From NCBI GenBank assembly GCA_014323545.1, contig CP058647.1, positions 998,001 to 1,062,000 of the forward strand: 64,000 nucleotides of DNA, written 5' to 3'. How positions within the stretch are numbered: the stretch's first letter is position 1; each line of letters begins with the position of its first letter. Under the pieces are notes generated by a model. The model made no database searches and had not been told where the DNA came from. It saw only the letters and a list, made by a program, of their open reading frames with translations. The position numbers and the translations under genes are program-made. This DNA comes from Hyphobacterium sp. CCMP332. Lineage in GTDB: Bacteria > Bacteroidota > Bacteroidia > Cytophagales > CCMP332. Below, one piece after another: positions 26,781 through 29,350 of this stretch.

Positions 26781-27494
26781 TTAAAACTCAAATTCTAAAC
26801 CTAATCTCTTTTTTAGCTCTATCAAGGCGGGGTTTTTTTGCGACAGATAGTCAAACTTTTCCTGAGGAGTATAAACAGTCTTTACTTTTTCAAGTTCAAT
26901 CCGTTTTATTTCCATCTGAAGGCTTTTATTTTTTACCTTTTTTCTGAGAAATAACAATAAATCCGATTTGATATCATTGTATCTGGCTTCATCGACAGGG
27001 CTGTCGATTATTATGTAAAGTTTTCCTTTTTCAAACTCAAATTCCTTTTGAAGAAGCTTGGCTTCGCCTATTTTATTTTTGGCTTTTAATACTTTGGTGT
27101 ATTCTGTTATGGCTTTTCGAATATCCTTATCAGTGTAATTCTCATCTACAAAATCGAAATCATCTTCTTCTTCCTCTTTTTCAGTCTTGTTATTAAAATC
27201 ATTAAGGTTAACAATAGGTTTTATTTTCGCTTTGATTTGTGATTTAGAGCCAAGGATGTTTTCCTTCTCAACATTGACTTTCTCTTGTGCTTGAGGCTTC
27301 GATATTTTGTTTTCCTTTTCCTTTTTATCTTCCTTGTCCTTCTCACTGGTAGATTCCATCAAATTGGAATCATCAGAATGAAATTCGTCAATGTTTTTTT
27401 CATCGGGCTCACTGCCGTAAGACTCAGAGAAATTTTCAAAGACCTGATTTGAGGAATTGTCTAATTCTGGCTTAGACTCAGGACTTTTTTTTTT
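26781..27494 (-). CDS. dnaX: DnaX tau-specific C-terminal region, read after a -1 frameshift
   Basis: This frame is open from the A10 run at 27494-27485 to a stop at 26781 and carries no independent ATG near its start. The first part is an acidic and lysine-rich linker; the last 100 residues are a folded domain ending KFDYLSQKNPALIELKKRLG, which I recognise as the usual end of Bacteroidota DnaX tau. It is offset by -1 from the frame of the ATPase domains. It should therefore be made as a fusion with the upstream frame, giving a tau of about 600 residues that could bind the polymerase alpha subunit and the DnaB helicase. An indel error in the A-run is the alternative. Confidence 0.8.
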   Translation of the reverse strand, partial: KKKSPESKPELDNSSNQVFENFSESYGSEPDEKNIDEFHSDDSNLMESTSEKDKEDKKEKENKISKPQAQEKVNVEKENILGSKSQIKAKIKPIVNLNDFNNKTEKEEEEDDFDFVDENYTDKDIRKAITEYTKVLKAKNKIGEAKLLQKEFEFEKGKLYIIIDSPVDEARYNDIKSDLLLFLRKKVKNKSLQMEIKRIELEKVKTVYTPQEKFDYLSQKNPALIELKKRLGLEFEF

Positions 27495-28588
27495 GAGGCT
27501 TCTTCTTTCAAAGCCTCTCCATCAAGTAGAAACGGAATGTGCGCCATCTTCATTAGCGCTACTTCCACATGCAATCTCTGGTTTTTGGCAGATTTAAAAT
27601 TTAGATCACATTGATTGCCCAGGTGAAGGGCTGTCATTAGAAATGAATAATCGGCCTTTTGACCTTGCGATTTATAGGTTTCAGCGAGCTTTTCGGTGAC
27701 ATCAAGCAAGGAAATGGTATTTTTATCTCGAGCCATTATCAGATTTCTAAAATGTTCGCTAAGGCCAAGGATAAAATTATGTTCATCAAATCCTTTTTTT
27801 AGGATTTCATCAAATGAAGTGAGGATTCCAGCAACATTCGAGCTTAAAATATCATCTGTAATCTTAAAATAATAGTCATAATCCAGAATATGTAAATTAG
27901 AAACCACATCCTGATAGGATATTTTGCTATCAGATGAATAGGTCACCATAAGATCAAACAATGAAAGTGCATCACGAAGTGCACCATCTGCTTTTTGAGC
28001 GATCAGATGCAATGCCTCTGCATCAGCGCTTACTTTCTCTTTATCAGCAATATTTTGAAGATGCCCGGAAATATCACTAACTCCAATTCTGTTGAAATCA
28101 AAAATCTGACATCTTGATAATATAGTTGGAAGTACTTTGTGCTTTTCAGTAGTAGCTAAAATAAATATGGCATAGGGCGGTGGTTCTTCAAGCGTTTTAA
28201 GAAATGCATTAAATGCCTGAGAGCTAAGCATGTGAACCTCATCAATGATGTAAACTTTGTATTTTCCAAATTGAGGTGGGTAGCGAACCTGATCGATTAA
28301 ATTCCGAATATCATCAACAGAATTATTGGAAGCGGCATCGAGTTCATAAATATTCAATGCTGTACTATTTCCCTCCCCTCCTTTTTCATCAAAGTCATTA
28401 ATTAATCTGGCGAGGATTCTTGCACAGGTAGTTTTACCCACACCTCTGGGTCCGCAAAACAATAGTGCCTGCGCTAAATGGTTGTGCTCAATCGCATTAT
28501 TTAGGGTTGTTGTTATGTGCTCCTGTCCGACAACTTCTTCGAAATTAACAGGTCGGTATTTACGAGCGGATACAACAAAATTTTCCAT
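27461..28588 (-). CDS. dnaX: DNA polymerase III gamma/tau subunit, ATPase and clamp-loader domains (gamma form)
   Basis: Core of the clamp loader. Residues 1-365 hold the AAA+ module: Walker A GPRGVGKTTCARIL, Walker B VYIIDEVHMLS, sensor 1 FILATTEKHKVLPTILSRCQIF and domain III. The zinc-binding cysteines found in E. coli DnaX between Walker A and DAAS are absent; the segment NDFDEKGGEGNSTALNIYEL replaces them. After SKKK (A10 run) the frame ends within eight codons at VLSLSQN, giving a gamma-like 375-residue product. The tau region continues in the -1 frame. Confidence 0.93.
   Translation of the reverse strand: MENFVVSARKYRPVNFEEVVGQEHITTTLNNAIEHNHLAQALLFCGPRGVGKTTCARILARLINDFDEKGGEGNSTALNIYELDAASNNSVDDIRNLIDQVRYPPQFGKYKVYIIDEVHMLSSQAFNAFLKTLEEPPPYAIFILATTEKHKVLPTILSRCQIFDFNRIGVSDISGHLQNIADKEKVSADAEALHLIAQKADGALRDALSLFDLMVTYSSDSKISYQDVVSNLHILDYDYYFKITDDILSSNVAGILTSFDEILKKGFDEHNFILGLSEHFRNLIMARDKNTISLLDVTEKLAETYKSQGQKADYSFLMTALHLGNQCDLNFKSAKNQRLHVEVALMKMAHIPFLLDGEALKEEASKKKVLSLSQN
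27485..27517 (-). promoter_or_regulatory. dnaX slippage site: A10 run with a hairpin just upstream
   Basis: On the coding strand a perfect 7-bp stem, GAGGCTT (27517-27511) with AAGCCTC (27501-27495) and a 9-base loop, directly precedes ten A residues (27494-27485) and a G. In the zero frame this reads TCA AAA AAA AAA GTC; a -1 slip gives AAA AGT CCT and enters the open tau frame. This fits the A-AAA-AAA slippery class known from E. coli and Thermus dnaX. Here the obvious stem is upstream rather than downstream. Confidence 0.7.
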
Positions 28589-28729: not shown

Positions 28730-29131
28730 GGGGCCGACCGGTTTTGACAGGAAGGCAAAATGCAATGCTTGCATACCGGGTGAAGAGTGTACATCCGCAA
28801 TCAATATACTCGATTTTTACTTGGCGAATCTAATTACGCCATGGCCGCCTAATTCTGAATTGAATTCAGAATAGAGGCTTAATTGATTTTGGCAATAAAC
28901 CAGAATCAGGCCACATCTCACCTGCCTACGCCTTGCTGGCGGGATTTTGGGGTGTCGAAACGCAAGACTAGTGCTGACCCATGTTGCCAAGTCAGTGCGA
29001 AAATATCGCAACTAGCCATAAACTAGGAGGTTGTCATCCGGGTTTATGGTAAAACTAAATTGACAACTATGTATGTAGACGGCCTTGGATTTCCTTGTCT
29101 GGACGTGGGTTCGACTCCCACCGGCTCCACC
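28730..29131 (+). ncRNA. ssrA: Transfer-messenger RNA (tmRNA)
   Basis: Rescues stalled ribosomes by tagging the nascent chain. The 5' GGGGCCGACCGG and 3' end form the acceptor stem: GGGGCCG pairs with CGGCTCC at 29122-29128 with one G-U. The T-arm is GTGGGTTCGACTCCCAC. The tag reading frame at 28823-28849, ending in TAA at 28850, encodes GESNYAMAA, a typical Bacteroidota tag with a terminal AA degron. After the discriminator A (29129) the genome has CCT rather than CCA, so the CCA end appears to be added enzymatically. Confidence 0.97.
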
Positions 29132-29134
29132 TTC

Positions 29135-29202
29135 GCTTGCCATAGCCCTTTAGGGCGCTTTGCTTCGCTAAAGCTACGCGAAAGCAAAGAAGGCAAGCTT
29201 TT
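29135..29202 (+). terminator. Nested hairpin downstream of tmRNA
   Basis: Outer arms GCTTGCC (29135-29141) and GGCAAGC (29192-29198) followed by TTTT; inner arm CTTTGCTTCGC (29158-29168) pairs with GCGAAAGCAAAG with one bulged A; a small GCCCT/AGGGC hairpin (29145-29156) lies in the left half. It is likely the tmRNA terminator, more elaborate than usual. The remaining AT-rich 29203-29350 shows nothing I can name. Confidence 0.55.
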
Positions 29203-29350
29203 ATTTCAATATTCGACTTAATTCATTTCTAGTTCTACTAGCTCAAGCTTCGGTGCACTCAGTCCACTTAATTCTGAATACCATTTTCAATAATTAATTA
29301 GTCAACCACACAATTGTGTTAGTTGAATGCCAAATAATATAGGTTAAGAA

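Follow-up and report, generated by a model that had tools for sequence, protein, structure and literature searches.

The dnaX gene of Hyphobacterium sp. CCMP332 is split over two reading frames at a run of ten A, and we conclude that it probably gives rise to two clamp-loader proteins, gamma and tau, by programmed slippage of RNA polymerase at this run. A run of nearly the same length is found at the homologous place in most dnaX loci compared across the phylum, although the frame in which the tau-specific part is encoded varies freely among these genes. Positions refer to the window, i.e. the whole stretch of 64,000 nucleotides that was analysed (contig CP058647.1, positions 998,001 to 1,062,000 of the forward strand).

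An initial annotation, made from the letters of the window, had described dnaX as divided at A10, with the ATPase frame ending eight codons past the motif SKKK and a recognisable Bacteroidota tau C terminus in the -1 frame; all of this was borne out (Table 1). The run consists of exactly ten A, the TAG stop is the eighth codon after SKKK, and the zero-frame ORF translates into a protein with the last residues EEASKKKVLSLSQN. No stop interrupts the -1 frame where it passes through the run (stop to stop 27521-26781, reverse strand); read from the run, it contributes 234 codons to a tau of about 602 aa, the other 368 codons being shared. All frames except that of tau end within seven codons past the run.

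Table 1. Features of the split dnaX gene of CCMP332 (window positions)
Feature	Position	Strand	Details
dnaX zero frame, gamma-like protein	27461..28588	-	ATPase domains I-III, 375 aa, ATG at 28588
Candidate hairpin stimulating polymerase slippage, perfect 7 bp, adjoining the run upstream	27495..27517	-	arms 27517-27511 with 27501-27495
Slippage run A10	27485..27494	-	codons (TC)A AAA AAA AAA, from residue 365
TGA closing the third (+1) frame	27478..27480	-	1.3 codons past the run
Gamma stop TAG, zero frame	27461..27463	-	7 codons past the run, eighth codon after SKKK
tau-specific C terminus, -1 frame	26781..27485	-	234 codons and TAA stop (26783-26781)

Both parts matched the NCBIfam model PRK14971 (614 positions): the zero-frame protein covers positions 1-372 of the model (E 5.3e-189), and positions 420-613 are covered by the -1 frame part (E 1.1e-18). 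Thus, the two parts are the two halves, in order, of one PRK14971-family protein. The bit score of each half alone was under the whole-protein cut-off (685), as expected because each query is half a protein. In Pfam, domain III (PF12169) extends to residue 352 of the zero-frame protein, i.e. it ends before the run at residue 365, and the -1 frame part had no match. The gene product has the makeup of DnaX (gamma/tau) of Bacteroidota, i.e. an AAA+ clamp-loader ATPase with domain III, followed by a PRK14971-family tau C terminus. The genome (one contig, 3.33 Mb) contains a single full dnaX; two weaker matches were judged by their low identity to be other ATPases. After the Walker A motif, DnaX of CCMP332 lacks the zinc-module cysteines, with one Cys remaining. 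Among 192 DnaX proteins, these cysteines are absent in 48, which belong to several distinct groups, Flavobacteriaceae among them. Divergent from dnaX lies a tmRNA gene (28730-29132, forward strand; RF00023, 141.9 bits), which is overlain by small ORFs at 28817-29221.

For comparison, dnaX loci were collected in two sets. A search of relatives found dnaX in 115 of 118; the open frames fell into two length classes, one of about 365-460 aa and one of about 550-840 aa. From this search, 113 loci, including that of CCMP332 itself and a second dnaX copy of one genome (G038, L197), entered the first set together with 80 named loci; the latter are biased to close relatives because they are the best 80 of 594 matches. 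The phylum sample, in which 107 of 109 genomes had a match and all 103 new ones were taken, is free of this bias. Left out were two other ATPases (L002, L003), two loci at contig ends (L186, L195), a fragmented case (G109), one duplicate and L248, which lies at the same place as L159. For the first set, the search for the run covered residues 335-430; for the phylum set, it covered residues 335-460. Two short dnaX genes, L193 (448 aa) and L196 (362 aa), come from genomes of 1.6 and 0.7 Mb, respectively; a tau frame was looked for in both and none was found.

In the first set, an A9-A11 run was present just past domain III in 172 of 192 loci (A9, 12; A10, 147; A11, 13). In the phylum sample, it was present in 22 of 23 loci from other orders of the class and in 52 of 80 loci from other classes. 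Combined, 246 of 295 loci have the run at the homologous place (A9, 38; A10, 190; A11, 18), while 49 lack it, among them L339, one of the 80, which is cut off before the site. The comparison of relatives that the initial annotation had proposed as a check therefore came out in its favour, with the same -1 split in 98 loci. It had also reasoned that relatives with one continuous frame and no conserved run would speak against programmed slippage; many relatives are indeed continuous, yet they have the same A10 run. The arrangement is commoner than it had supposed.

The run is retained in 42 loci with a G+C content above 50% (among the first 234 counted), and elsewhere in dnaX of the first set only 21 A/T runs of at least 9 occur in 340 kb. 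In the CCMP332 genome (3.33 Mb), there are 18 A10 matches, which after merging correspond to 14 distinct runs. The A10 run in dnaX is not there by chance. The genome-wide counts for CCMP332, 586 for A8 and 97 for A9 followed by the 14 distinct runs of at least 10, are suggestive of an avoidance of long runs, which is not absolute; we give this argument little weight because several of the 14 runs sit in open frames. Runs of ten A or T lie within apparently in-frame genes for coaBC, a GT4 glycosyltransferase and a molybdate permease (in-frame run positions G000:C1:2696406 (L213), 231322 (L200) and 720612 (L205)). Some Bacteroidales dnaX genes are without the run (L047, L065, L096, L098, L102, L110), and L096 has a G7 run near the homologous place, at residue 371.

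Among the 246 run-bearing loci, the tau-specific part lies in the zero frame in 143, in the -1 frame, as in CCMP332, in 98, and in the +1 frame in five, two of which have A9 or A11, where a miscount of the run could be the cause. A10 was the commonest length in each class of the first set (zero, 84 of 99; -1, 62 of 70; +1, 2 of 4), so that it is the length and not the frame that is kept. When the N-terminal parts of 192 DnaX proteins were placed on a tree, the tau-frame label needed 40 changes compared to 77 when shuffled, and the -1 class alone needed 28, at least 13 of them forced by well-supported branches; these numbers are approximate because the tree is a quick FastTree with long branches. 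Sister species can differ, i.e. tau is in the zero frame in Aquimarina mytili (L055) and in the -1 frame in Aquimarina sp. RZ0 (L062), both with A10. That the run is conserved while the tau frame varies strongly supports programmed slippage with the reversal of roles suggested by the initial annotation, in which the zero frame would give the short form and slippage would give tau.

Both frames other than that of tau are closed soon after the run. Both stop within eight codons in 154 of 172 loci, compared to 18.8% at linker control positions in the same genes. The +1 frame is the telling one, since it is never entered by -1 ribosomal frameshifting. It stops within eight codons in 87 of 98 loci with tau in the zero frame (null 0.399, binomial p 9e-24) and in 63 of 70 loci with tau in the -1 frame (null 0.487, binomial p 3e-13), relatedness being ignored in both p values.

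Taken together, the fixed length, the indifference to frame and the closure of both wrong frames agree better with slippage by RNA polymerase, of the kind seen in Thermus dnaX, than with -1 ribosomal frameshifting. Moreover, according to Antonov et al. (PMC3711429), as far as their report is accessible, shifts in both directions among orthologues are a mark of transcriptional realignment; by this criterion, the 98 loci at -1 and five at +1 point to the same process. Thus, the 'likely programmed -1 frameshift' of the initial annotation stands as far as programmed slippage is concerned, but the ribosome that its wording implied is not what the pattern favours, which is RNA polymerase and one extra A.

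The polymerase would now and then add or lose an A while transcribing the run. An unslipped A10 mRNA would be read in the zero frame up to the stop seven codons on and yield gamma (375 aa); an mRNA with one A more, or two fewer, would be read in the -1 frame and yield tau; and a transcript that lacks one A or carries two extra would enter the third frame, meet the TGA almost immediately and again end like gamma. In the nascent RNA, the hairpin would come to lie behind the RNA-DNA hybrid of 9-10 bp, and it may raise slippage. While the anatomy of the gene, the conserved run, the variable tau frame and the closure of the wrong frames are seen directly in the sequences, we infer that RNA polymerase is the agent that slips, and likewise the ratio of gamma to tau and what the hairpin does.

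The initial annotation had regarded the perfect 7-bp hairpin directly upstream of the run as unusual. The stem exists: in CCMP332 it folds with 7 bp and one G-U pair at -11.9 kcal/mol (z -3.72), and 2 of 200 shuffles were as good. It is not odd for polymerase slippage, as for a Roseiflexus IS630 element an upstream stem-loop in the nascent RNA, just before the slippage tract, is described as stimulating slippage by the polymerase; that element differs in that the gene encodes a transposase and the tract is of the U5C5 type without an A-run (PMC5009743).

Over the loci, stems of at least 6 bp (G-U allowed) that end within 2 nt of the run occurred in 46 of 171, whereas 100 synonymous-codon shuffles gave 18.9 on average and 28 at most; after thinning at 80% identity, they occurred in 20 of 91 (mean 10.0, maximum 16). 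The enrichment is thus about twofold. By position, stems of at least 6 bp (G-U allowed) were found at distance 0 in 17.4% of loci and at greater distances upstream mostly in 1-6%, although a second, smaller peak of 11% occurs near -44. The 39 nt upstream of the run formed more stable folds than their synonymous shuffles did (mean z -0.59, compared to -0.15 at control places). Watson-Crick-only stems of at least 5 bp were not above shuffles (20 vs 12.1, maximum 22). We rejected the hairpin as a conserved element, as its sequence is not conserved and the stems differ between loci; an abutting hairpin is not a general feature because only 46 of 171 loci have one. It is plausible that the upstream hairpin is a lineage-specific enhancer of slippage and not a required part.

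For the Bacteroidota in the sense of GTDB, including the Chlorobium-like classes, we lean, with some reserve, towards a slippage by the polymerase that would be ancestral, tuned by length and indifferent to frame. A run of about 10 and the stops would be under selection, and the frame of tau would drift as slippage supplies all three frames; nascent-RNA hairpins, recurrently replaced by unrelated sequences, would enhance slippage in about a quarter of the lineages.

A -1 programmed ribosomal frameshift in the style of E. coli dnaX, with roles reversed and slippage on A_AAA_AAA or A_AAA_AAG within the run, is in our judgement unlikely. Slippery heptamers are available in every phase of the run, and the split loci mostly need -1 (98 vs 5). 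However, 7 nt would suffice for a heptamer, whereas the run lengths cluster around 10, with A7 or A8 as the longest A-run in just five loci (L016, L143, L191, L267, L341); moreover, five loci need +1, and stops close off the +1 frame no less tightly than the other frames. A downstream stimulator was rejected, as no structure signal was detected in the 60 nt downstream of the run in 172 loci (mean z -0.42, compared to -0.40 at random places in the gene) or in the 80 nt downstream in CCMP332 (z 0.20). From the known size of the ribosomal footprint, the stems nearest the run would fall inside the decoding ribosome. Shine-Dalgarno-like tetramers shortly before the run, at -8 to -4, are enriched over the set (86, compared to 51.3 in synonymous shuffles); this excess would be in keeping with a stimulator of the ribosome, or else stem from the choice of GAG over GAA; CCMP332 dnaX has no such tetramer at -8 to -4. 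Of 33 tRNA matches, 30 loci were read, and the only lysine tRNA among these is tRNA-Lys(UUU); a single tRNA-Lys(UUU) is a condition thought to favour ribosomal slippage. Given the tetramer excess and this lone tRNA, a mixed or ribosomal mechanism retains some probability.

Sliding of ribosomes on poly(A) in both directions, without slippage of the polymerase, would account for the dependence on length and for the use of both wrong frames, and we consider it very improbable. Such sliding is known from E. coli extracts and cells; in the accessible part of that report, however, in vitro translation showed little sliding and little truncated product at A9 and A10, and A11 was needed for much of it (PMC4363877). 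Stems abutting the run on its upstream side are also not expected from sliding.

A separate C-terminal protein made by reinitiation or from an internal start has next to nothing to recommend it. In its favour is a TTG at 27362, the first start-like codon in the -1 frame of CCMP332; against it, none of 70 split loci has an ATG in frame with tau less than or equal to 20 nt from where gamma stops (5.1 expected), and the C terminus is fused in frame in 143 of 246 run-bearing loci. We rejected it on the lack of a nearby ATG and on the in-frame fusions in relatives.

Homopolymers are error-prone, and a few A9 or A11 loci may be sequencing or assembly errors, but as a general explanation error is refuted by the conserved run and split. 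The identical split occurs at the same run in 98 loci of many genera, the split is not an indel error because a homologous A9-A11 run recurs across the phylum, and a decaying gene is contradicted by there being only the one full dnaX in the genome; we see virtually no chance for either. Phase variation of tau at the level of the DNA, through slipped-strand replication, to which a homopolymer in a coding region and the A9 of L151 inside a clade of A10 loci might point, was rejected with equal confidence, since the run varies little in length (A10 in 190 of 246) and its length does not depend on where tau is encoded, contrary to what a length-switching tract would show, and clamp loader function is essential.

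In E. coli, dnaX undergoes a -1 ribosomal frameshift at A_AAA_AAG with an upstream Shine-Dalgarno-like element and a downstream stem-loop, and tau is the zero-frame product. CCMP332 dnaX resembles it in that one gene would give gamma and tau at a lysine A-run and differs in its 10-nt run, compared to a short heptamer, in having no downstream signal and in the frame of tau. Another related case is dnaX of Thermus thermophilus, where transcriptional slippage occurs at A9 (Larsen et al. 2000, as related in the accessible parts of PMC1088944 and PMC5009743). Both have an A-run of at least nine at the border of gamma and tau and nearby stops in the two frames other than that of tau, with two products in Thermus; in Thermus, however, tau is the zero-frame product and gamma arises by slippage, while in CCMP332 tau would need slippage. 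The relatives with tau in the zero frame have the Thermus arrangement, but CCMP332 dnaX does not.

The reversed type has been known since 2013. As far as their report is accessible, Antonov et al. described 17 split dnaX genes from 12 genera, nine with A10, as a new type in which tau needs recoding, and proposed transcriptional realignment (PMC3711429). CCMP332 dnaX is one more of this kind: like them, it consists of two ORFs with a -1 shift at the DNA level, an A10 junction, a zero-frame gamma stop directly after it and a tau that needs recoding, and the arrangement recurs in relatives (98 of 246 run-bearing loci). The accessible part of Atkins et al. 2016 mentions both the reversed type and the Thermus case. 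In a search of open-licence papers, we found none on a phylum-wide dnaX run. Relative to the accessible part of the 2013 report, the constancy of the run across the phylum, including fused genes that have it, the wandering frame of tau, the test of the stops and the upstream stems are added here.

Through the comparison, what looked like a sporadic curiosity becomes a rule for the phylum, and one whose mechanism can be tested. The frame of a core replication gene could wander because its transcript would be read in all three frames. Finally, the short DnaX annotated in many such genomes would not represent truncated genes; tau there would depend on slippage.
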